Assembly: GCA_944393255.1 (NCBI GenBank)
Contig: CALXZP010000042.1
Location: forward strand, 1-64,000
Source of the DNA: an uncultured Clostridia bacterium
Lineage (GTDB): Bacteria > Bacillota > Clostridia > UBA1381
Length of the DNA stretch: 64,000 bases
Direction: 5' to 3'
The first letter of the stretch is position 1. Each line of letters starts with the position of its first letter. A program made the translations under genes and the position numbers. The notes under the pieces were generated by a model. It did not search any database, was not told where the DNA came from, and saw nothing but the letters and a program-made list of their open reading frames with translations. Below are positions 6,788 to 49,126 of this stretch, in pieces.

Positions 6788-8131
6788 TTATTTAAGCAGC
6801 TTTCTGCTGCGGAATGCAAACATGGCTGTCGTAACGCATACGGCGGTCACGTCGCTTATCGGCTCCGCAAGGAAGAGCCCCCAAACTCCGAGCTCCGTCA
6901 CCATAGGTATTATGACGGCGAGCGGGAACAGCAGTATTATCTTTCTGAGACAGGCGAGGAAAACCGAGGTCTTTGCTTCGCCCAAAGCGATAAAGGTCTG
7001 CTGGCAGGCGTTCTGCGCGCCCATAAGGGACATGCCGATCATAAAAAGCCGAAGCGCGCTGCTGCCCTGTGAGATCAGCTCCGGATCGTTTGAGAAGAGC
7101 CAGAGAAAGAAGCCCGGGAACAGTTCCACAAGAGCTACTGCCGAGAGTGAAAACAAAAGGCTGGCGGCAAACTGTATGCCGAACGTCTTTTTTACGCGGG
7201 CGATGTTTTTTGCTCCGTAATTGTAGCCGATGATAGGCTGAACGCCCTGCGCAAAGCCGGAGAGCGGCATCCATACCAGCTGCATGATGCTGAACAGCAC
7301 GGACATTATCGCTACGTACATATCGTTTCCGTATGTTATCATGCCCTTGTTGAACGTGAGCTGGATGATGCATTCGGTGGACTGCATAACGAACGGCGAA
7401 ACGCCCAGAGCGAGTATGGAGCCTATTATCCGAATATCCGGCGCCATGGTCCTCAGCCTCAGCTTAAGGATGGTCTTTTTGCCCGTAAGGAATACGAGCA
7501 CCCAAACGCAGGAGGCGAACTGTGAGATTATAGTTGCGAGAGCCGCGCCCTTAACGCCCATACCGAACACGAATATGAACACGGGATCGAGGACGATATT
7601 GAGCACCGCGCCCAGGCATACCGTAAGCATACTCTTTGTCGAGAAGCCCTGGTTGGTTATGAACATATTGAGCCCGAGCGAGAGCTGAACGAATATAGTG
7701 CCTATAAGATATACTGATATGTAATCGGAAGCGTAGGGCAGCGTGTTGGAGCTGGCTCCGAATATCATGAGTATACGATCCTTTGTGACAAGGAATACGA
7801 TACTGAGTATGACAGCAAAGATTATAAGGAGCAGAGCGCTGTTCCCGAGATACTTTTCGGCTTTTTTATAATCGCCCGCGCCCATGGCTATCGATGCGCG
7901 CGAAGCGCCCATACCGGCGAGCATGGCGAATGCCGAAACGAGCATGATTATCGGGAAGGTAACGCCGAGACCGGCAAGCGCGAGCGAGCCGATCCCCGGT
8001 ATCCTTCCGACGTATATCCTGTCTACTATATTATATAAAAGATTAACAAGCTGGGCGGCCACCGTGGGCAGAGAGAGCCGTATGATCAGTTTTCCGGGGG
8101 ATTCCGTACCCAGATAGCTGTTTTTCTCCAA
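6788..8131 (-). CDS. MATE-family multidrug/drug:cation antiporter
   Basis: This 447-residue protein has about twelve hydrophobic segments and the MATE pattern: N-terminal PGKLIIRLSLPTVAAQLVNLLYNIVDRIYVGR and the second-half equivalent QGVQPIIGYNYGAK. The family exports cationic drugs or metabolites in exchange for Na+ or H+. The start is a TTG at 8131 with AAAGG upstream. It lies 46 bp downstream of the amylase gene and 52 bp upstream of the secreted protein, so all three could be one minus-strand transcript. The substrate cannot be read from the sequence. Confidence 0.93.
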   Translation of the reverse strand: MEKNSYLGTESPGKLIIRLSLPTVAAQLVNLLYNIVDRIYVGRIPGIGSLALAGLGVTFPIIMLVSAFAMLAGMGASRASIAMGAGDYKKAEKYLGNSALLLIIFAVILSIVFLVTKDRILMIFGASSNTLPYASDYISVYLIGTIFVQLSLGLNMFITNQGFSTKSMLTVCLGAVLNIVLDPVFIFVFGMGVKGAALATIISQFASCVWVLVFLTGKKTILKLRLRTMAPDIRIIGSILALGVSPFVMQSTECIIQLTFNKGMITYGNDMYVAIMSVLFSIMQLVWMPLSGFAQGVQPIIGYNYGAKNIARVKKTFGIQFAASLLFSLSAVALVELFPGFFLWLFSNDPELISQGSSALRLFMIGMSLMGAQNACQQTFIALGEAKTSVFLACLRKIILLFPLAVIIPMVTELGVWGLFLAEPISDVTAVCVTTAMFAFRSRKLLK

Positions 8132-39142: not shown

Positions 39143-39171
39143 TTGACAAATCAGGGTTACAGGTGTAAACT
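39143..39171 (+). promoter_or_regulatory. sigma-A promoter of the BlaI/BlaR1-type pair
   Basis: -35 TTGACA (39143-39148), -10 TAAACT (39166-39171), spacer 17 bp. The -10 box overlaps the first BlaI-type operator. Confidence 0.75.
39156..39170. promoter_or_regulatory. BlaI/MecI-type operator 1
   Basis: GTTACAGGTGTAAAC, a near-perfect palindrome of the TACA-N2-TGTA type bound by BlaI/MecI repressors. It covers part of the spacer and -10 box. Confidence 0.75.
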
Positions 39172-39181
39172 ATAGATAAGA

Positions 39182-39196
39182 GTTACAAATGTAAAC
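39182..39196. promoter_or_regulatory. BlaI/MecI-type operator 2
   Basis: GTTACAAATGTAAAC, 26 bp downstream of operator 1 and between the promoter and the ribosome site. Two operators on nearly the same DNA face suggest cooperative autorepression. Confidence 0.75.
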
Positions 39197-39215
39197 TCGG
39201 ATGAGGAGGTTTAGT

Positions 39216-39587
39216 ATGGAAAATGTAAAGAACATTTCCGAATCGGAGTGGAAAGTGCTCGAGGTCTTGTGGGACAAGCCGGGAAGTCTCATAGGCGAAA
39301 TAAGAACGGCCCTTGCCGGAAGCGGCTGGAGCTATTCGACGATAAAGACGCTCGTTTTGAGATTGACTCAAAAGGGAGCGCTTTACACAAAGGAAACGCC
39401 GCAGGGCAAGGAATACTATCCTGCGGTGGACGAGGACAAATCGCGCCGCGACGAAACGAAGCATTTCCTTGACAGGATATATAACGGTTCGGTGCGGATG
39501 CTGTTTTCAAATCTCGTAAAAGACTCGAAATTGTCTGACAAAGAGGCTGAGGAGCTTATGGGGCTTATTGATAAGATGGAGGATTGA
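39216..39587 (+). CDS. BlaI/MecI-family repressor
   Basis: This 123-residue protein is a winged-helix repressor (ISESEWKVLEVLWDKPG... then YSTIKTLVLRLTQKG, residues 5-65) with a C-terminal dimerisation helix. In the classical systems the membrane protease BlaR1/MecR1 triggers cleavage of the repressor. The usual cleavage region near residue 100 reads RMLFSNLV here. The ATG at 39216 follows AGGAGG. Two matching operators lie in its own promoter, so it autoregulates. Confidence 0.88.
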   Translation: MENVKNISESEWKVLEVLWDKPGSLIGEIRTALAGSGWSYSTIKTLVLRLTQKGALYTKETPQGKEYYPAVDEDKSRRDETKHFLDRIYNGSVRMLFSNLVKDSKLSDKEAEELMGLIDKMED

Positions 39588-39646: not shown

Positions 39647-41107
39647 ATGAACAGTACGATATATTCTCTGTTTATCTCAATGGCATTGCGTGTAACGGTA
39701 ATTACGGCGTTTGTAATGCTCATAAAGCTCGTGTTCCGCCAGAAGCTTTCCGCGGCGGCGCACTGCGGCATATGGCTCATACCGGTAGTCCAGGTCATGT
39801 TTTGTATAGGCAATGTGAGCATACCCGCCAAGACCAGTATCTATAATGTGGTCGAGGGGGTAACGGTCCCGGCGGACGTGATAGCCGCGCAGCAGACGGC
39901 GGCGCATACAGATGTGCGCAACATCATTGCGCTGGTCTACTGCATCGGAACGGCTGTGCTCGCGCTTTGGTATCTGACGGTGTTCCTGCTGCACAGGTAC
40001 AGAACATCAAAGCTTGAGACGGTAGATGACGCGGAAACGCTGAGAATACTCAGCGGTCTGAAATCGGTTCTCGGCATAGGCGGCGAAATAAAGCTGCGCC
40101 GCGGCAAATTTGCGCAGACGCTCGGAAATACGGTCATCCTGCCCGGCGGATATTCCTATGACGAGCAGCGGCAGATAATGCTTCACGAGCTTTGCCACTA
40201 TAAGAACAAGGACAATGTCAAGCTTCTTATCGCTGCGGCGGTGATATGCCTTAACTGGTTCAATCCGTTGGTTTGGCTGGCGTTCAGACGGTTCAGGAGC
40301 GATATAGAGATGTATTGCGACGATAACGTTATGAAGCTGACAGACAGCAAAAAGGAATACGCGATGGTTCTTGTAAAGACCGCGGCTGAGCATACTCGGT
40401 TCGTTCCCGGAGCGGCCGGAGTAAGCAACAGCAAGCACGAGGTGGCGCGCAGAGTGAGACGGATAGCGTCGTGGAAGAAAAAGAAGCCGGTATGGCTCGT
40501 TGCGGCGGTGTGCGCATGTGTGACAGTCTCATGCCTGTGTCTGACCGACGCTGTATCAACGGCAGTGGAGAATACCGTTGACGCGGCCGCTGCGCCGGAG
40601 CCTGTGGATGTGGTCCCGGCTATAATAGAGACCGTAACATCGCAGAACACTCCGGAGCCGACGGAAGCGCCGGCGGAGCCGGAGCCGGAATATTCCGAAC
40701 CGCGTACCCGTCAGAGCACGGCGGCTGTGCAGGATAACGATACTGCGCAGGACGACGCTGCCGGCGAACGTGCCGAAAGCGGCGGAACGTATTCATATGC
40801 GCCGGAGACGGACACGGTCTATGAAGCGGAAAACGCTGCGGCGTACGCAGAGCCGGAAGAGCCTGTACAGGAGCCGGAAACCGCCGCGCCTGAGGAGGAT
40901 ATATATTCCTCTCTGGGCGAGCCGGAGAGCGTGAGCGCAAACGGGAACAAGGAGACCTACAGCCTTGACGACGGCAGAACGGCGGTGCTTCACTATGACG
41001 GCGGCGAGCTTGAAACGGGCTACATCATAAACGGCGGCGGACAGGAAAGCGAGCCGGCCGCGGAGGATGCGCCGGAGCCGCGCGAAGGGAGCGTAACAGA
41101 GGAGTAA
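39647..41107 (+). CDS. BlaR1/M56-family membrane metalloprotease sensor
   Basis: This 486-residue protein has several membrane helices (about 1-130 and near 285-305) and a cytoplasmic zinc protease with HELCH (H180, E181, H184) and a downstream glutamate region DIEMYCDDNV. In BlaR1 the extracellular domain binds beta-lactams; here there is no penicillin-binding domain but a long disordered Pro/Glu-rich segment ending in a 28-residue module (40949-41032) shared with the next gene. I start at the ATG at 39647 with AAAGGAG; a TTG at 39584 overlapping the blaI stop is an alternative. Confidence 0.85.
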   Translation: MNSTIYSLFISMALRVTVITAFVMLIKLVFRQKLSAAAHCGIWLIPVVQVMFCIGNVSIPAKTSIYNVVEGVTVPADVIAAQQTAAHTDVRNIIALVYCIGTAVLALWYLTVFLLHRYRTSKLETVDDAETLRILSGLKSVLGIGGEIKLRRGKFAQTLGNTVILPGGYSYDEQRQIMLHELCHYKNKDNVKLLIAAAVICLNWFNPLVWLAFRRFRSDIEMYCDDNVMKLTDSKKEYAMVLVKTAAEHTRFVPGAAGVSNSKHEVARRVRRIASWKKKKPVWLVAAVCACVTVSCLCLTDAVSTAVENTVDAAAAPEPVDVVPAIIETVTSQNTPEPTEAPAEPEPEYSEPRTRQSTAAVQDNDTAQDDAAGERAESGGTYSYAPETDTVYEAENAAAYAEPEEPVQEPETAAPEEDIYSSLGEPESVSANGNKETYSLDDGRTAVLHYDGGELETGYIINGGGQESEPAAEDAPEPREGSVTEE

Positions 41108-41370
41108 AGCAGCTTTTTTGGGAGATAGGGTAAAGGAGATAATATAGGCAGATAAGGCCGGAGCCGTATAAGGGAAGATAAACGGGTAAACAGGCAAAGG
41201 GAGATAAGCAGGTATTTTCTGAAACGGCAGAGGCGGGCGCTCGCCCCGGTAATGAGCTATGAGCATTATTTTGCGGGTGAGCGCTGTTTTTAAACAAAAA
41301 CAGAGTAAAAATATTCAATATTATTGCAATTAACACCATTAGAGGAGATAGAAAGGAAAGGTAATATATT
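41108..41370. other. intergenic region with AGATAA repeats
   Basis: Purine-rich DNA (41120-41215) with at least five GAGATA/AGATAA-like units is followed by a GC-rich hairpin (CGGGCGCTCGCCCCG near 41237-41250) and a CTGTTTTT/AAAAACAG palindrome (about 41284-41303). No BlaI-type operator and no clear promoter for the downstream array is seen. Confidence 0.4.
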
Positions 41371-41613
41371 ATGAAAAAGGCGATGCTTATAGCGGCGATC
41401 ATGATGATGGGAACTACCGCGCTGGCGGCTGACAGGGACGATATGGCGGCGGTAGCGATAGGAAGCAACCGTGCAGCCGTTTATGAAACGGCCGGAACGG
41501 GTGAGACGACCTCGTCGGGGCTTAAGGAGACGTATACGCTTGACGGCGGCGATGAGGCGGTACTGCATTTTGACAGTGATATTCTCGTAAGAGGATTTAT
41601 ATTAAATTATTGA
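41371..41613 (+). CDS. small secreted protein sharing a module with the M56 sensor
   Basis: This 80-residue protein has a signal peptide (1-20, ending ALAA) and a short mature part. Its last 28 residues (KETYTLDGGDEAVLHFD...ILN, 41524-41607) align without gaps with the C-terminal module of the preceding M56 sensor, 16 of 28 identical by eye. I know no named family. It has a GGAAAGG site and lies 31 bp before the first SLH gene. It could be a ligand, decoy or co-receptor for the sensor, but that is an inference. Confidence 0.65.
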   Translation: MKKAMLIAAIMMMGTTALAADRDDMAAVAIGSNRAAVYETAGTGETTSSGLKETYTLDGGDEAVLHFDSDILVRGFILNY

Positions 41614-41644
41614 ATATGGTATGGGAATACAGGAGGTGAAAGGG

Positions 41645-44125
41645 ATGAACAGGATCGTTATGAAAGCGGCTGCGGCGTTTTGCGCGGCGGCTATCCTGCC
41701 GTCGGCATGGGCGGTTCCCGAAACGAAAGCGGCGGAATGGATAAACCTGTCCTCGTGGGCGTATGAGGATGTGAGCAGCTTTGTGAGCAAGGGACTGCTT
41801 CCGGAAAGCCTGAGCGGCGTTTCGGATTATACGCGCCCGATAAAGCGGTGGGAGCTGTGCGAGCTGATATATTCCGTGCTTGACAGCGCCGGTATGTTTG
41901 TGCATGACAGGTTCGGAAAAAGCTTTGACGACTGCGGCGGATATCCGAATATGAACAAGCTCTGCAGCGTGGGCATAATAGACGGCGTTGAGACGGACGA
42001 AGGCGTGTTCTTTTATCCGGAGAACGATATTACGCGCGAGGACGCAGCCAAAATAGCCGGCAATACGATGACCGGTACGGGAGTATGGGAGGATGCCGGG
42101 GATACGGGTGCGGAAGCCCTGAACGGAAGAATAAACGATGTTTCCGAAATAAGCGGATACGCGCTGCCGTCGGTGGCTTCTGCGATCTCAAACGGGTTGA
42201 TGACCGATACCGGCAGCGGCAGCTTTGAGCCGAAGGCGCGGCTGACGGTCGAGCAGGCGGTGATAATTGTTTATAGGATGTATAATAATATCCCAAAGCT
42301 TGTGGACTCGGATAACGAGACGGCGGACGGCGCCGGGGAGCAGACTGTGCGCGAACTCGGAGACGGGCTTGAGGAGACGTACGACGGCGGCGTTTACCGT
42401 ATAAAGAAAGACGGCGAAACGCTCATGCAGCTTGAAGCGGACGTATATTCCAAGCTTCTTTACGGAAAGAACAACGGCGCAGAATACATTTTTGCGGTCA
42501 ATTTCAACGATAAGACCGATGTGTACGACCTCGGCACGAAGGAGCTTTTGTATACCATACCGTATATAGTGTATAGGCTTGACAATGAAAACGGACTGGC
42601 GTACGTGTACTCGTCGCGGTTCATGCCGGCATACAGCGGTGTTTACGGCATGGACGGCGCGGAATTGGCAAAGCCGGAATACAGCGAAAGGGAGCTTGAG
42701 CTGATGGCGGAAAACGGCTTCAGGGAGCCGGAAGAGGAATACCGTGCGGCGGACGGCTGGATATACTATTCAAACTGGAACGACAGCGGGCATCTGTATA
42801 AGGTTGATACAAACGGCGAAAATAAAAAGCTGCTCGTGAGCGGGCTTGACTGCTGCGATACGGAATACTTTAAGGGAATGCTGTATTTCAAGGCGAAGGA
42901 AAACGGCGCGCTTTACTGTACCGACAGCGAGGGCGGAAAGCTTTTCACATTGTCCGAGTCAGAAAACGCCGAGATGGTGTGGCCGAGGGCGTCCTTATTC
43001 AACTCTGAGGCGTATGAGGACGGCGATATCATCACCGATATAAACGGAAATAGATTTGTAATAGGTCGGGACAGCATTTATTACGACAGGCGCGGACAGG
43101 TGTTTGACGGCTGGCTCATGTACGGTGAACCGGCAGATTATACGAGAGAATTTACCGAGCCTGACGGCGGAACAGCGTCGGTATCAAGCAGCGCCTGCAT
43201 ACTTTACAGGTTCAGAACGGCAAACGGCGGTATAGAGCGCGAAAAAATAGCCGACTATCCCGTATACAAGCTATCCGTGAGCGCAGACGGGGATGCGGTA
43301 TGGTTTATGAACGCACAGGAGCTTGCCGAGACAGGGGAATCGCAGATATACGTGTATGACGGAAAGGATATCACCGATGCGGCGGACGGCATAAAAGCGA
43401 TAGATATCGGGTTTTGTTATGACAAGGACAAAGACGGGGCGGACATGAGCAAGCTTTGCTTTATCACGATGGATGAGATAGGAAAAGGCACATATCATGC
43501 CATGGATATAAAAACGGGAGAAATAACGCAGGAGCAGCTTGAACAGCCGCGTTATGAGCAGAGCGACGGGCATGTTTACAGCGGCATAAGCGCTGACGAT
43601 ATGAAGGCGTACGGCACGGAGGACAGAACGCTGGTCATTGAATATAACGGAACGAAAACGGAGCTTGGAAAAGCTGATCCGATCTATAGGGAAGGCAGCA
43701 CGGTCTATTATTCAAAGGATATTAACATGCTGTACGGATACGGCTCGTCAAACCCGTTAAGGCGGGTTGTGAATTCGGAGCGGGATATATATTGGTACGA
43801 TTATGTCACGGGAGAGAAAGGATACGCGGCCGGTGACTTTGACTGCCGGTGGGATGAGTTCGATGGTGCGTACATATATACTACTCCGCTTATGCAGTAC
43901 AGGATGCTGAGCGGCGGCGGATCGGTTTCCGTATATCCCAATAAGGGAATAAACAAGTACGGAGCGGTCGGGCTGCTGTCAACGCTCAGTGACGTGATAT
44001 GGCAGAACGACCACCTCTATAAGATAGACAAGGACGGCGTTTTTACCGACGTGACCTGCAGCGACGCCGGATATTGGGTATATGTTCCGAACGGGAGCGA
44101 CGAGGCCGCTATGAGCCAATGGTAG
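41645..44125 (+). CDS. SLH-domain surface protein, array copy 1
   Basis: This 826-residue exported protein has a signal peptide and three S-layer homology domains (about 25-225: AEWINLSSWAYEDV, ENDITREDAAKIAG and KARLTVEQAVIIVYR). A long Tyr/Asp-rich region of propeller-like repeats follows (RAADGWIYYSNWND, HLYKVDTNGENKKLL), resembling DUF5050, and a C-terminal IYVPNGS-like end. SLH domains attach proteins to pyruvylated wall polymer. The rest may bind a ligand. AGGAGGTGAAAGGG precedes the ATG. It is the first of four paralogs in tandem. Confidence 0.85.
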   Translation: MNRIVMKAAAAFCAAAILPSAWAVPETKAAEWINLSSWAYEDVSSFVSKGLLPESLSGVSDYTRPIKRWELCELIYSVLDSAGMFVHDRFGKSFDDCGGYPNMNKLCSVGIIDGVETDEGVFFYPENDITREDAAKIAGNTMTGTGVWEDAGDTGAEALNGRINDVSEISGYALPSVASAISNGLMTDTGSGSFEPKARLTVEQAVIIVYRMYNNIPKLVDSDNETADGAGEQTVRELGDGLEETYDGGVYRIKKDGETLMQLEADVYSKLLYGKNNGAEYIFAVNFNDKTDVYDLGTKELLYTIPYIVYRLDNENGLAYVYSSRFMPAYSGVYGMDGAELAKPEYSERELELMAENGFREPEEEYRAADGWIYYSNWNDSGHLYKVDTNGENKKLLVSGLDCCDTEYFKGMLYFKAKENGALYCTDSEGGKLFTLSESENAEMVWPRASLFNSEAYEDGDIITDINGNRFVIGRDSIYYDRRGQVFDGWLMYGEPADYTREFTEPDGGTASVSSSACILYRFRTANGGIEREKIADYPVYKLSVSADGDAVWFMNAQELAETGESQIYVYDGKDITDAADGIKAIDIGFCYDKDKDGADMSKLCFITMDEIGKGTYHAMDIKTGEITQEQLEQPRYEQSDGHVYSGISADDMKAYGTEDRTLVIEYNGTKTELGKADPIYREGSTVYYSKDINMLYGYGSSNPLRRVVNSERDIYWYDYVTGEKGYAAGDFDCRWDEFDGAYIYTTPLMQYRMLSGGGSVSVYPNKGINKYGAVGLLSTLSDVIWQNDHLYKIDKDGVFTDVTCSDAGYWVYVPNGSDEAAMSQW
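41731..41880 (+). repeat. conserved 5' block of SLH array, copy 1
   Basis: Encodes AEWINLSSWAYE and the rest of SLH1. Nearly the same DNA occurs at 44221-44370 (about ten differences in 150 bases by eye), including silent sites. Confidence 0.75.
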
Positions 44126-44137
44126 GAGGTAAGGCAG

Positions 44138-46594
44138 ATGAACAGCATAAAAATAAATGCGGCGGCGCTGATATGCGCTCTGTCGCTGATATCCGCATCC
44201 GTGCCGATGGGCGCGGGCGCGGCGGAATGGATAAACCTGTCCTCGTGGGCGTATGAGGAGGTAAGCGGCTTTGTGAGCGACGGGCTGCTTCCGGACAGCC
44301 TGAGCGGCGTTTCGGATTATACGCGCCCGATAAAGCGGTGGGAGCTGGGCGAGCTGATATATTCCGTCCTGTATCACTGCGGACAATTTTCTGAGGACGT
44401 ATATCAGGGCAGAGAATTCAGCGACTGCGAAGCATATCCCAATATTACGAAGCTCTACCGCTACGGGATAGCCGAGGGCGACGGCAGCGGGAATTTCAGA
44501 CCGGAGGAAAATATAACGCGCGAGGACGCCGCGGTGCTTATAGGACGGGCGATGGATCATTGCGGAGCGTATTATTCGACTGCGGATATAGATGGCGAAA
44601 ACGATGAAAACGCTGGCTTGAGCGGTATATCCGACAGTAAACAGATAAGCGGCTATGCAAGATCCGACGTGCTCAGTCTTATGAAGTTCGGCATCATGAA
44701 CGGAACAGGCGGCGGCTTCGAGCCGAAGAGCGGACTGTCTGTTGAACAGGCAGTGATAGCGGTCTACAGAGTTTATAAGTGGCTGCCGAGGCTGATACTC
44801 CCGGATAACGAAGGTATAAGCGGAGAGAATGAGCAGACGCTGCAGGAATACCCGAACGGGGCAGTTGAAGCGTTTTACGGGAACAGCTATCTTTTGAAAA
44901 AAGACGGGAAGCAGCTGATGACGTTTGAGACCGATGTATATTCAAAAATACTCAGCTGTGACTATGGCGGAGAAACACTGGCGTTTGCGGTCAACTTCAA
45001 TGATAAAACGGATGTGTTCAGGGCGGAAACAGGCGAGTTTATGTATACTATACCGTATATCGTCTATAAGCTCAGACCGGAGGAAGGACATATATACGTA
45101 TACTCGTCACGGTTCATGCCGGCATACAGCGGTATTTACGGCTTTGACGGCAGCGAGATCATAAAGCCGGAATACAGCGAAACGGAGCTTGAGGCGATAG
45201 CGGCGAACGGTTATGATATCCCGCAGGAGCAGTACCGTGCGGCGGACGGCTGGGTATACTATTCAAACTGGAATGATAACGGACATTTGTATAAGGTGGA
45301 TTCAAACGGTGAAAACGGCAAGCTGCTTGTAGACGGCCTGGACTGCAAGAATACGTATTACTTTAACGGTATGCTGTATTTCAATGCAAAAGAAGACGGC
45401 TGTCTCTACTGTATAGACGAGGATGGCAATGCTCTGCAAAAAATATCCGAGACTCCGGCTCAACAAATATGGGTACAAAAGGTCGGATTTGACGATCTCG
45501 CCGAGGAAAAAGAAGTAAATCTTATTGAATATAGCGCATCCAGAACGCTTTTGTACGGCACGGAGCGATTTACGGGCAAGAACGGGCGGATCCTGTACGG
45601 CGAAGATGCTTCTTTTGAAATGGAATATGTGGATGAGAGCACCGGTGAACGAACGTCCGTGCCGTTGTCGGCTTACATACTGTATGAATTCAGTTTCGGC
45701 AGCGGAGAACGCAAAAAGGTGGCGGATTTTCCCGTAAATAGAGTGATATGGTCATCCTCTGGAGACGACAGAGTGCTCTTTACGAACTATGAGGAAGCAA
45801 AAAAAACGGGAGCTTCGCCGATATATATGTATGACGGCTCCGAGCTTAAATGCATTACCGGCAGTCTGAAAGCGGTCACATACGGATTTATGCAGGAGGA
45901 AGGAAGCGGATATGGCGGGGATCGGCTGATTGGCAGCAAGGTCGGTTTTGTAACGCCGGAGGATATGGACGGAGACACATATCACATAGCAGATCTTGAT
46001 ACGGGTGAGATCACTGTAGAGAAGCTCAGGGAACCCGCCGATGACGAATACAGCGGCGGTGAAGATAAGATGGGCTATGATGAGCTGAGCGGCGACGGGT
46101 ATGAGATATACCGCAGCGGCATGAATCTGTATGTAGAAAACGGCTCGGAAACGAAGAGCCTCGGTGAAGGAGCCGCATTATTCCGTGACGGGGATATATT
46201 GTATTATGCGAATTACGCCGACCTTTTGGGAATCGACCTGTACGGTTATGCTCTGATGGCTTACAATATGAGAACAGGCGGACAAAGCATTGTAAGCGAC
46301 AGATATGTATATTGTTTAGGTATAAGATCCGATGTGATGAGCTTTCAGGAAAAGACCGGACATATCAAGAAAATAGACGGCGGAGAAACGCTTACCGTTT
46401 ATCCGAACAAGGGCCTTAAAAGATACGGCGAAGTCGATAGGATAGAGCACCGGATGAGGCAGATATGGCAGCCCAGGTATGTGTATAAAATAGATAAAGA
46501 CGGTAACTGTACACAGCTGACCGACTGCCAGTCCGAGTTTTGGCTATATGTTCCGAACGGAGCCGATAAAGCGAGCTTTTGTCAGTACGGCTGA
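44138..46594 (+). CDS. SLH-domain surface protein, array copy 2
   Basis: This 818-residue paralog of copy 1 has the same order: signal peptide, three SLH domains (ITREDAAVLIG, LSVEQAVIAVYR) and the propeller-like region with RAADGWVYYSNWND. The first 80 codons combine a signal peptide like that of copy 3 with an SLH1 second half like that of copy 1. AGGAGG precedes the ATG, 12 bp after copy 1. The remaining parts are clearly diverged from the other copies. Confidence 0.85.
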   Translation: MNSIKINAAALICALSLISASVPMGAGAAEWINLSSWAYEEVSGFVSDGLLPDSLSGVSDYTRPIKRWELGELIYSVLYHCGQFSEDVYQGREFSDCEAYPNITKLYRYGIAEGDGSGNFRPEENITREDAAVLIGRAMDHCGAYYSTADIDGENDENAGLSGISDSKQISGYARSDVLSLMKFGIMNGTGGGFEPKSGLSVEQAVIAVYRVYKWLPRLILPDNEGISGENEQTLQEYPNGAVEAFYGNSYLLKKDGKQLMTFETDVYSKILSCDYGGETLAFAVNFNDKTDVFRAETGEFMYTIPYIVYKLRPEEGHIYVYSSRFMPAYSGIYGFDGSEIIKPEYSETELEAIAANGYDIPQEQYRAADGWVYYSNWNDNGHLYKVDSNGENGKLLVDGLDCKNTYYFNGMLYFNAKEDGCLYCIDEDGNALQKISETPAQQIWVQKVGFDDLAEEKEVNLIEYSASRTLLYGTERFTGKNGRILYGEDASFEMEYVDESTGERTSVPLSAYILYEFSFGSGERKKVADFPVNRVIWSSSGDDRVLFTNYEEAKKTGASPIYMYDGSELKCITGSLKAVTYGFMQEEGSGYGGDRLIGSKVGFVTPEDMDGDTYHIADLDTGEITVEKLREPADDEYSGGEDKMGYDELSGDGYEIYRSGMNLYVENGSETKSLGEGAALFRDGDILYYANYADLLGIDLYGYALMAYNMRTGGQSIVSDRYVYCLGIRSDVMSFQEKTGHIKKIDGGETLTVYPNKGLKRYGEVDRIEHRMRQIWQPRYVYKIDKDGNCTQLTDCQSEFWLYVPNGADKASFCQYG
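44163..44370 (+). repeat. conserved 5' block of SLH array, copy 2
   Basis: 44163-44288 matches 46671-46796 of copy 3 with about four differences in 126 bases, whereas 44221-44370 matches copy 1: a mosaic. Confidence 0.75.
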
Positions 46595-46645
46595 TTTTAG
46601 GCGCGCTGTATCGGTGAGGAAAGATGAGAAACGGAGGAGATGGGC

Positions 46646-49126
46646 TTGAGGAAATTAAAGATAAGAACAGCGGCGCTGATATGCGCCCTGTCGCTGATAT
46701 CCGCATCCGTGCCGATGGGCGCGGGCGCGGCGGAATGGATAAACCTGTCCTCGTGGGCATACGAGGAGGTAAGCGGCTTTGTGAGCGACGGACTGCTCGC
46801 CGGGCGGCTGAAAGGGGAAGCGGACTATACGCGCGCGATCACGCGCGGTGAGTTTGCGGAGCTTATATATTCCGTGCTGTCCGCTTCCGGACGCGGCGGT
46901 GTGAGCGAAAGCGGCGGGAGCGCTTCCGGCTTTGCCGATTGCAGCGGTTATCCGGACATAAATAAGCTTGACCGCGCGATATTTGAGGGGCTGGAGGACG
47001 CAGGTGTGAACCTGTATCCGGAGCGCCGTGTGACGCGCGAAGAAGCTGCGCTCATAATTTACAACGCGCTGGGAGCTATAGGTGTTTACGGCTACAGCAG
47101 CATCCCCGACTATGAGAGGCTCGGCGCAAATATCAGCGACGCCGGAGAGATAAGCGGCTACGCGGTAAACGCGGTCGAAAAGCTGACGAGCAGCGGCATA
47201 ATGACGGATACGGGCGGCGGTAAATTCGAGCCAAAGTCCGAAATAACGATAGAGCAGGGGATCGCGGTGCTTTACAGGATATACAGGTCGATCCCGAAGC
47301 TCATATATGCAGACGCGGAGGGCATAGAAGGCGGAAGCGGGGAAATACAGTCATACGGCGGCGGTCTTGCGGAGATATACAGCGGCGGAAGGTATACCGT
47401 GACCGATAACGGCGCAGAGCTGCTGAGCTTTGAGGCCGATGTGTATTCAAAGCTGCTATGCTGCGAGTACGGCGGAAGAAGGCTGGCATTTGCCGTTAAT
47501 TTCAACGACAAGACGGACGTATACGACCTTGACAGCGGAAAAGTGATATATTCTATACCGTATATAGTGTACCGTCTCGACGCGGAAAACGGACTTGTAT
47601 ATGTGTACTCATCGCGGTTCATGCCGGCTTGCAGCGGTCTGTATTCGATGGACGGCGCGGAGCTGACGCCGCCGGAATACAGCGAATCAGAGCTTTCGGA
47701 GCTTGCGGCAAACGGCTTTGATATACCGGAGGAAGAACGCCGTAACGCCGACGGGTGGGTGTATTACACAGACCGCGGCGACGGGCGTATATATAAGACC
47801 GATTCAAACGGTGAAAACGAAAGCCTGCTCACAGCTGACGGCGGCTGCACTAATATAGCTTATGCCGACGGTATGGTCTTTTACAATTCAAGCGGAGGCT
47901 CGCTTATGTGTACGGACGGGAGCGGCGGCGGAGCCGTTCTGTCCGAGCAGCCTGCGGAGCTGCTGACGGCTTACGATGTGGTATTCGATCCGCACAAGCC
48001 TCCGCAGTACGCGGCTGAAAAGGTATATTCCAAAAGCGACGACGGCGGGAACAGGATAACGGACGGATATTTTCTTGACAAAAACGAGATATCTTCCTGC
48101 CTTAGAGCTGACGGGAGCATCATCTTCGGCGAAGCGGCTGAGCTGAAAAGAACGATAGTAGATCTTGAGGAAAAGAGCACGGGCGAAAGAACTCTGTATG
48201 CCTGCCGGCTGTATAAGGTCAATATTTCCGAAAACGGCGCGGAAGCGGAGCGTGTCGCCGATTTTCCGGCGATAGGTATATGCGCGTCTCCTGACGGCTC
48301 GGGCATATACTTTATGAACGCGGAAGAGCTTGTGAAGAACGGCGATTCTCCGATCTATGCGTATGACGGAAAGACCGTATCGGCGCTGCCGCAGGGGCTG
48401 CGCGCGGAGTGCTTCGGGTTTCTGAGAGGGAACGGCGATGAGGACGGCATGATAGGGTATTTGACAAAGGACGAGATAGGCGGGGGTACATACCATGTGT
48501 TCGATCCGTCGGATGGAAGCGTCACGGTCAAAGACATGCCGGAGTATGAAAAGAGTGAAAGCGGCGATTCCTTACCGCTTTCAGACGACGAGAACGGCAG
48601 ACTTTCGGCAGACTGGGACGGGAGCCGCCTGAAGATAGAATACGGCGGCAGTACGAAGGAGCTGGAAAACGTTTTATATATCGATACCTTTGGCGGACGC
48701 GTATATTACAGCCCCGGTACGGCGCGAAGCTTTTTCGATATGTCGGTGCTTTCGACGGTCGGGATGGGCAGAGTGTGGCGGATAAGCTGCTATGATTACA
48801 GGACGGGCGGGACTGCGGAGGTGAGCGATGATTTTTCGGAAAGCTTCATCACGTCACGCCTGCTCGGAGATAAGCAGATATACAAGACGGCAGCCGGTCA
48901 ATACAGGCTTTTGACGGGTACTGAAAGCGTTTCCGTATATCCGAACAAGGGTCTGCACCGGTTCGGCGAGCTGTCCGCCGTAGCGCGCCTTGACGGGACT
49001 TCATGGCAGAACGGACGTCTTTATAAAATAGATAAAGACGGAAACTTTACACAGCTGACCGAGCGCGGCGCAGAAGAGTGGATCTATGTGCCGAACGGCG
49101 GCAGCGAAGCAAAATTTTCAGGATAA
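46646..49126 (+). CDS. SLH-domain surface protein, array copy 3
   Basis: This 826-residue paralog has a signal peptide, three SLH domains (ITRGEFAELIYS, VTREEAALIIYN, ITIEQGIAVLYR) and the propeller-like region, here with RNADGWVYYTDRGD replacing the usual NWND. I start at the TTG at 46646, eight nt after GGAGG; the ATG at 46640 is only 2 nt from it. It lies 51 bp after copy 2. Confidence 0.84.
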   Translation: MRKLKIRTAALICALSLISASVPMGAGAAEWINLSSWAYEEVSGFVSDGLLAGRLKGEADYTRAITRGEFAELIYSVLSASGRGGVSESGGSASGFADCSGYPDINKLDRAIFEGLEDAGVNLYPERRVTREEAALIIYNALGAIGVYGYSSIPDYERLGANISDAGEISGYAVNAVEKLTSSGIMTDTGGGKFEPKSEITIEQGIAVLYRIYRSIPKLIYADAEGIEGGSGEIQSYGGGLAEIYSGGRYTVTDNGAELLSFEADVYSKLLCCEYGGRRLAFAVNFNDKTDVYDLDSGKVIYSIPYIVYRLDAENGLVYVYSSRFMPACSGLYSMDGAELTPPEYSESELSELAANGFDIPEEERRNADGWVYYTDRGDGRIYKTDSNGENESLLTADGGCTNIAYADGMVFYNSSGGSLMCTDGSGGGAVLSEQPAELLTAYDVVFDPHKPPQYAAEKVYSKSDDGGNRITDGYFLDKNEISSCLRADGSIIFGEAAELKRTIVDLEEKSTGERTLYACRLYKVNISENGAEAERVADFPAIGICASPDGSGIYFMNAEELVKNGDSPIYAYDGKTVSALPQGLRAECFGFLRGNGDEDGMIGYLTKDEIGGGTYHVFDPSDGSVTVKDMPEYEKSESGDSLPLSDDENGRLSADWDGSRLKIEYGGSTKELENVLYIDTFGGRVYYSPGTARSFFDMSVLSTVGMGRVWRISCYDYRTGGTAEVSDDFSESFITSRLLGDKQIYKTAAGQYRLLTGTESVSVYPNKGLHRFGELSAVARLDGTSWQNGRLYKIDKDGNFTQLTERGAEEWIYVPNGGSEAKFSG
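46671..46860 (+). repeat. conserved 5' block of SLH array, copy 3
   Basis: The signal-peptide part matches copy 2; the SLH1 part (46711-46860) matches 50601-50750 of copy 4 with about six differences in 150 bases. Confidence 0.75.

Follow-up and report, generated by a model that had tools for sequence, protein, structure and literature searches.

Why should a membrane sensor of the BlaR1 type and a small secreted protein encoded beside it carry the same stretch of protein? A locus of an uncultured Clostridia bacterium raises this question. It lies in a stretch of 64,000 nucleotides (contig CALXZP010000042.1, positions 1 to 64,000), which we analysed as a whole and call the window. M56/BlaI systems are best known for their response to beta-lactams, in which the ligand is a drug. 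At the window locus, the original prediction held that the sensor's C-terminus and its secreted neighbour share a module of 28 residues, and that the secreted protein mimics or competes with the extracellular end of the sensor, or that both bind one target. Here we describe the shared module, its fold, its distribution in relatives and its regulatory context, and weigh what the pair may do.

A BlaR1/BlaI-type locus with surface-layer genes

The genes of the locus stand in the order BlaI repressor, sensor, small protein and SLH surface proteins, with the following features.

39143..39196, + strand: promoter with -35 TTGACA at 39143, read together with two BlaI-type operators
39157-39168 and 39183-39194, + strand: BlaI-type operators TTACAGGTGTAA and TTACAAATGTAA, respectively, 26 bp apart and overlying the blaI promoter
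39216..39587, + strand: BlaI/MecI-type repressor (Pfam PF03965, E 9.4e-28)
39647..41107, + strand: M56 metallopeptidase sensor, BlaR1-type (Pfam PF05569, E 1.1e-35, above cut-off)
40862..41032, + strand: predicted BLIP/BamE-fold domain of the sensor (profile match E 2.2e-28; the sequence is itself a member of the profile)
41371..41613, + strand: secreted protein of 80 residues, a signal peptide followed by one predicted BLIP/BamE-fold domain
41440..41607, + strand: predicted BLIP/BamE-fold domain of the secreted protein (profile match E 2.0e-22; also a profile member)
41621..44125, + strand: SLH surface protein with DUF5050 propeller, the first structural gene (Pfam SLH E 1.6e-8, DUF5050 E 3.1e-9)
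44138..46594, + strand: second SLH/DUF5050 protein (Pfam SLH E 7.5e-15, DUF5050 E 2.6e-11)
46640..49126, + strand: third protein of the SLH-propeller family (phmmer against the first, E 4e-187)

As read from the sequence, the first ATG of the repressor's ORF is at 39201, the ATG at 39216 is preceded by GGAGG, and the sensor begins at an ATG with GGAG upstream. The sensor runs from its HELCH active-site motif through the last membrane helix and a Pro/Glu-rich linker to the BLIP/BamE-fold domain and a short acidic tail. The signal peptide of the secreted protein spans about 41371-41427, judged by eye. Sensor and small gene are separated by 263 bp, in which we found no plus-strand promoter or terminator match, and we infer that the two genes share one transcript.

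This arrangement resembles BlaR1/BlaI and MecR1/MecI in the adjacent blaI and M56 genes, in the HExxH motif of the peptidase and in the tandem operators of the TTACAnnTGTAA type. As in BlaR1 and MecR1, the sensor domain is C-terminal, past the last membrane helix. Unlike those receptors, the window sensor has no penicillin-binding domain, and the genes linked to it encode SLH surface proteins rather than a beta-lactamase. Pfam on the whole sensor returned M56 and a sub-threshold M48 only, with no penicillin-binding or class-D-like sensor domain, and the NCBIfam model blaR1_generic scored 93.9 bits where its cut-off demands 400. An NCBIfam match to ilvC (E 0.0041) was far under its cut-off and was taken as chance.

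The shared module is part of a larger domain

The predicted likeness between sensor and secreted protein is confirmed: when 40949-41032 (KETYSLDDGRTAVLHYDGGELETGYIIN) and 41524-41607 (KETYTLDGGDEAVLHFDSDILVRGFILN) are translated and set side by side, no gap is needed and 16 of 28 residues are identical. Against the 48 other non-overlapping ORFs of at least 80 aa in the window, the best ungapped identity of the secreted protein over 28 residues was 10, and 100 shuffles of its mature form gave at most 11/28 with the sensor. Used as a query against the whole genome, the secreted protein found the window sensor at E 1.7e-6, as well as a further such pair elsewhere in the assembly, on contig C5 (sensor E 1.4e-10, small protein E 4.1e-7). 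In this second pair the domain is the last part of the M56 sensor, and an SLH protein accompanies the sensor and the small secreted protein.

The match is real, but the 28 residues are not the whole unit. With relatives aligned, the true domain has about 56 residues and the consensus IGxxRxxVYxxLGEPxSVSxxGxKETYxLxDGxTAVLHYDxxxLxxGYI, and the stretch first noticed comprises only its three-stranded sheet. Because the first part of the domain is degenerate in the window sensor, only the last 28 residues are conspicuous there. The position given for the module likewise needs a small correction: it is in the C-terminal region of the sensor, but it stops about 24 residues before the stop at 41107 and is not the very end.

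The SLH propellers were also said to contain a GLEETY-like stretch akin to the module. The stretch can be seen by eye, but homology is not supported: HHalign of the module gave a probability of 15% against the segment alone (26 sequences; single-comparison E 0.0017) and of 1% against the SLH protein in full (single-comparison E 0.051). Around residues 246-275 of the first SLH protein (window 41621-44125), a conserved motif that opens the propeller resembles the module's sheet. It reads roughly NGxxExxxGxxxxLKxGxxxLMxFETDVYS and occupies the equivalent place in the aligned SLH proteins (26 in all). The sheet-like motif could be mimicry or chance.

Predicted fold of the domain

From 19 aligned sequences, AlphaFold modelled the secreted protein in its mature form (pLDDT 89.5, pTM 0.70) as two helices followed by three strands, H-H-E-E-E. 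For the sensor we modelled the domain of relative L085, with pLDDT 88.6. In a Foldseek search against the PDB, the first 27 rows were all of BamE or BLIP type, weak matches with a best E of 0.024 and none below 0.001. By VIA-align 2, the secreted model superposed on residues 83-163 of BLIP (domain 2) with Z 9.7 and rmsd 1.6 over 60 aligned residues (25% identity). Further matches were E. coli BamE (Z 8.6), the S. mutans BLIP-like structure 3d4e (7.9) and YjgB (4ygt; 7.6), and the L085 sensor-domain model gave Z 8.3 with BLIP, 8.2 with BamE and 7.9 with YjgB. In these predicted models, helices precede an antiparallel sheet and the whole superposes on BLIP and BamE, as in the BLIP-like superfamily.

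Sequence families place the domain less closely. The BamE family PF04355 reached the window secreted protein at E 0.09 (13.0 bits, below the curated cut-off of 23.2); of 11 small proteins it matched seven with E no higher than 1, the lowest value being 0.0014. The BLIP family PF07467 had no match in Pfam scans of the window proteins and the relatives' small proteins. Searches for solved structures by sequence gave none with one alignment (A1) and chance-level matches with the single protein and a second alignment (A2). The domain is thus alike in fold to BLIP, BLIP-I and BLP but differs from them in sequence family and in number, as BLIP is a tandem of two and each protein here has one. It is also alike in fold to BamE / SmpA-OmlA, 3d4e and YjgB. 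BamE, however, is a lipoprotein of the outer-membrane BAM complex, and the signal peptides of the small proteins show no lipobox cysteine by eye. An outer-membrane role for a BamE-like domain would not be expected in the window's Clostridia lineage.

Distribution and gene neighbourhood

We searched 95 genomes of the order with a profile, and 20 proved to carry the domain. All 44 copies fall into two contexts: 26 form the C-terminal domain of M56 sensors of the BlaR1 type, and 18 belong to small secreted proteins. Within the order, then, the module does not turn up in unrelated contexts only, one of the two outcomes on which the original prediction was to fail. The hosts of these sensor/small-protein systems include some gut bacteria. 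We read 29 loci, 28 of which have the module; the remaining one (L039, a first-look match in genome G005 at E 0.004) lacks it and was dropped.

Nor is the pairing lost among homologs, the other such outcome. Sixteen of the 18 small genes share a contig and a gene array with a module-bearing sensor, and the other two (L033, L074) are on contigs cut nearby. Seen from the other side, 16 of 26 sensors have a small gene, four (L072, L073, L075, L079) are cut by a contig end, and six on apparently uncut stretches have none beside them (L035, L036, L038, L076, L077, L078). With six loci lacking it, the secreted twin would therefore be an accessory rather than a ligand that the sensor requires. The small gene may stand between sensor and SLH gene, after the SLH gene or, once (L034), ahead of both; its place varies, and its membership of the array does not. 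An SLH-family gene adjoins 24 of the 26 sensors; the exceptions, L072 and L073, end at the edge of a contig. The HExxH motif is kept in all 26, and the peptidase is therefore probably active.

Two of these loci have peculiarities of their own. In L029, a second small secreted protein of 127 aa (6946-7329, - strand) lies between the small and SLH genes and is weakly module-like (E 2.3). In L036 (6999-8374, genome G003), the sensor is split over two overlapping frames of 138 and 320 aa, a frameshift of either the gene or the assembly.

Beyond the order the domain thins out to weak matches, some of them to BamE-like lipoproteins. Across the class, 12 of 391 genomes matched at E 0.01 or better, five in the window's family and seven outside it. 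Three of the seven outside loci are BamE-like by eye (L050-L052), one has a sub-threshold PF04355 match (L054) and three look like chance (L053, L055, L056). At the level of the phylum, 4 of 398 genomes matched at E 0.001. At L101-L104, which are BamE-like or weak matches in other families, the surrounding 7-16 kb held no M56, BlaI or SLH-propeller gene. One of the BamE-like loci, in another Clostridia genome, encodes a lipoprotein-like protein with three tandem profile-matching stretches (L051:1324-2364, + strand) and has no M56 or BlaI gene nearby.

Operators and regulation

Only five TTACAnnTGTAA sites occur in the 2.6-Mb genome, two of them at the window's blaI promoter. The three further sites (C14:28381, C23:2266 and C25:34940) are possible other BlaI-type repressor targets.

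A scan of the 29 loci (428,810 bp) for tandem operators, with a step of 24-26 and at most one mismatch, returned 18 hits; ten block-shuffled versions of the sequence returned 1-5. Fourteen lie within 70 bp upstream of blaI, so that 14 of 24 blaI genes carry an operator pair by the strict criterion. One more hit is 272 bp from a blaI gene that also has a nearer one, two have no blaI or small gene, and the last precedes the L034 small gene by 93 bp. In that locus (genome G027), the small and SLH genes make up a unit of their own upstream of blaI, a natural split of the operon in two. The promoter of the small-SLH unit is a near-copy of the locus's own blaI promoter, operators included:

L034:7356-7393 and L034:10149-10186: near-identical tandem-operator promoters, one for the small and SLH genes, the other for blaI and the sensor

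Since the operator is copied at the small-SLH promoter, the small and SLH proteins of L034 belong, as far as sequence can show, to the regulon of that BlaI. Regulon membership is thus assigned from the operator in one locus and from the gene array elsewhere.

History of the module

The original prediction had pictured module fission or duplication between receptor and neighbour. As a recent event at the window locus, this can be set aside: in a tree of the 44 modules, few of whose forks are firm, copies group by protein type and not by locus (4 label changes against a shuffled mean of 14.0, with 0 of 500 shuffles as low). The duplication would therefore be old. Resolution is low, with 7 of 37 inner branches starred and the L034 small protein falling among the sensors, and a single clade of small proteins is not rejected (p-AU 0.242).

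Within the sensor, the domain has changed least. Over 11 loci, mean distances were 0.45 for the domain, 0.62 for the M56 part and 0.79 for the linker. L066, L067, L069 and L070 were left out of this test as near copies of L068, as was L028, in which the contig ends within the SLH gene. After control for M56 distance, and with the tree ignored, partial correlations over these 11 loci were 0.54 between sensor domain and small protein, 0.51 between sensor domain and SLH protein, and 0.36 between small and SLH protein. All three rise together, and shared history may be their source.

What the sensor may read

The sensor domain and its secreted twin probably bind one partner, which is the most economical reading of one domain family in one regulon. 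We favour a fuller account, to which we give slightly less than an even chance: an M56/BlaI operon whose sensor carries a BLIP/BamE-fold domain and whose soluble twin binds the same surface partner, probably as feedback. The system would be a proteolytic signalling operon of the BlaR1/BlaI type that controls cell-surface SLH proteins. The outside part of its sensor would be a single domain of about 56 residues, not penicillin-binding, on a long Pro/Glu-rich tether; this long acidic tether could let the domain reach into the wall. In BlaR1, binding on the outside activates the peptidase on the inside, BlaI is lost and the operon opens (PMC7593790, in the portion available). By analogy with that family, a ligand bound outside would activate the metallopeptidase inside, BlaI would be removed and the operon expressed.

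Members of the BLIP-like superfamily are described as binding and inhibiting partner proteins (PMC2954215, excerpt). The common partner in our case would most likely be the operon's SLH-propeller protein, or whatever that protein binds; the SLH-propeller protein is the first candidate because it is the most constant neighbour. Exposed free partner might then fire the sensor, and the induced soluble twin would occupy that partner and damp the signal. As the twin would be induced by the signal, competition between it and the sensor would amount to negative feedback in which a soluble version of the receptor domain does the damping. The complete loop, in which a metallopeptidase receptor induces a bare copy of its own sensor domain as a soluble decoy for a surface partner, plausibly the SLH-propeller protein, and so keeps the surface layer in homeostasis, is a tentative proposal that we think rather unlikely to be right in every part. 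The six apparently uncut sensor loci without a small gene argue against such feedback being universal.

A domain shared between receptor and regulon has a precedent in the RsgI anti-sigma-I factors of Clostridium thermocellum, whose outside domains (CBM3, GH10, PA14) are of families also found in secreted proteins of the regulon (PMC4711584, in the text accessible to us). Judged by domain homology and by the operator or gene array, the window system has the same trait. If the parallel extends to function, the domain would bind a glycan or envelope polymer; the sensor would read this ligand and the small protein would bring it to the SLH layer, with no feedback involved. The SLH-propeller genes of the same array, and the shared operator in L034, agree with this, as does the presence in RsgI of CBM and GH families found in regulon proteins. 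The parallel is incomplete, however. RsgI is an anti-sigma factor, whereas M56 and BlaI act here and the sensor has no anti-sigma-I N-terminal domain. RsgI modules bind glycans or are glycoside hydrolases, and the RsgI partner is a multi-domain enzyme where here it is a bare domain. The small protein has no anchoring domain, and the BLIP-like superfamily is described, in the excerpt of PMC2954215, as protein-binding and inhibitory, not glycan-binding. We regard this account as possible, on the doubtful side.

Alternatively, the secreted protein could itself be the ligand. It would dock on the sensor domain, for example with the two sheets edge to edge, and either hold the sensor off or switch it on, so that the sensor gauges its own product. 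The occurrence of one domain on both proteins would suit this, as would their operon-like array, the single operator type of L034 and the way in which the distances of the two domains track each other (partial r 0.54). The six loci with no small protein beside the sensor speak against it, for another input is probably present there, and the sequences give no sign that the domain associates with itself. We consider it unlikely. PepSY proteins, which belong to the BLIP-like superfamily, also occur on or beside metallopeptidases and are proposed to inhibit them (PMC2954215, excerpt). They lie on the same side of the membrane as the peptidase, whereas here, by homology to BlaR1, the M56 site would be inside and the domain outside.

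The domains might instead do what BLIP does and bind a serine beta-lactamase or a penicillin-binding protein (PBP), the sensor watching a PBP and the secreted twin inhibiting one. Structurally, BLIP domain 2 is indeed the closest match (Z 9.7, with 25% identity and an rmsd of 1.6 over 60 residues), and the M56/BlaI chassis is the beta-lactam one. However, BamE fits nearly as well (Z 8.6), BLIP works with two tandem domains in place of one, PF07467 was unmatched in the Pfam scans, and no beta-lactamase or PBP gene was seen in the conserved array. A fold does not show a function, and this reading is improbable. That a common small extracellular domain sits in two adjacent genes by chance, as the BamE-like lipoproteins unlinked to M56 outside the order might suggest, is scarcely credible and already largely refuted by the distribution of all 44 copies over two contexts within the order, by the 16 of 18 small genes beside a sensor and by the operator shared in L034.

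Much of what this system is made of is already known: the M56/BlaI chassis, the fold, and the occurrence of one domain in both sensor and regulon (RsgI; loosely BlaR1). In the open-licence literature, as far as its text was available, we came across no M56 protein described as sensing through a BLIP/BamE-fold domain, and no account of a secreted twin; none of the open-licence papers searched contained both 'beta-lactamase inhibitory protein' and 'BlaR1'. The window system puts a domain of protein-binding fold on the M56/BlaI chassis, ties it to surface-layer proteins and naturally encodes the sensor domain a second time, in soluble form, in the same operon. It suggests that the sharing of domains between sensor and effector can be reduced to a bare domain of 60 residues. 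If the favoured account holds through to the decoy, there would be a class of M56 sensors that reads proteins through a BLIP-like domain instead of antibiotics. The small protein would be a ready-made bait with which to find what the sensor reads.

Other M56 genes in the genome

The window's genome has seven M56 places, two of which bear the module. We considered whether M56 sensors share their ends with a neighbour as a general rule and rejected it: the C-terminal 119 residues of one of the others, the M56 protein on contig C14, had no other match in the genome at E 0.1. At a further place (L092:1480-3187, contig C42 of the same genome, about 102 kb), an M56 frame of 271 aa is followed by an ORF in another frame. 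The beginning of this second ORF looks like the continuation of an M56 membrane helix, and what follows is LytR-CpsA-Psr-like by eye, which suits either a fusion with a change of frame or two separate genes.
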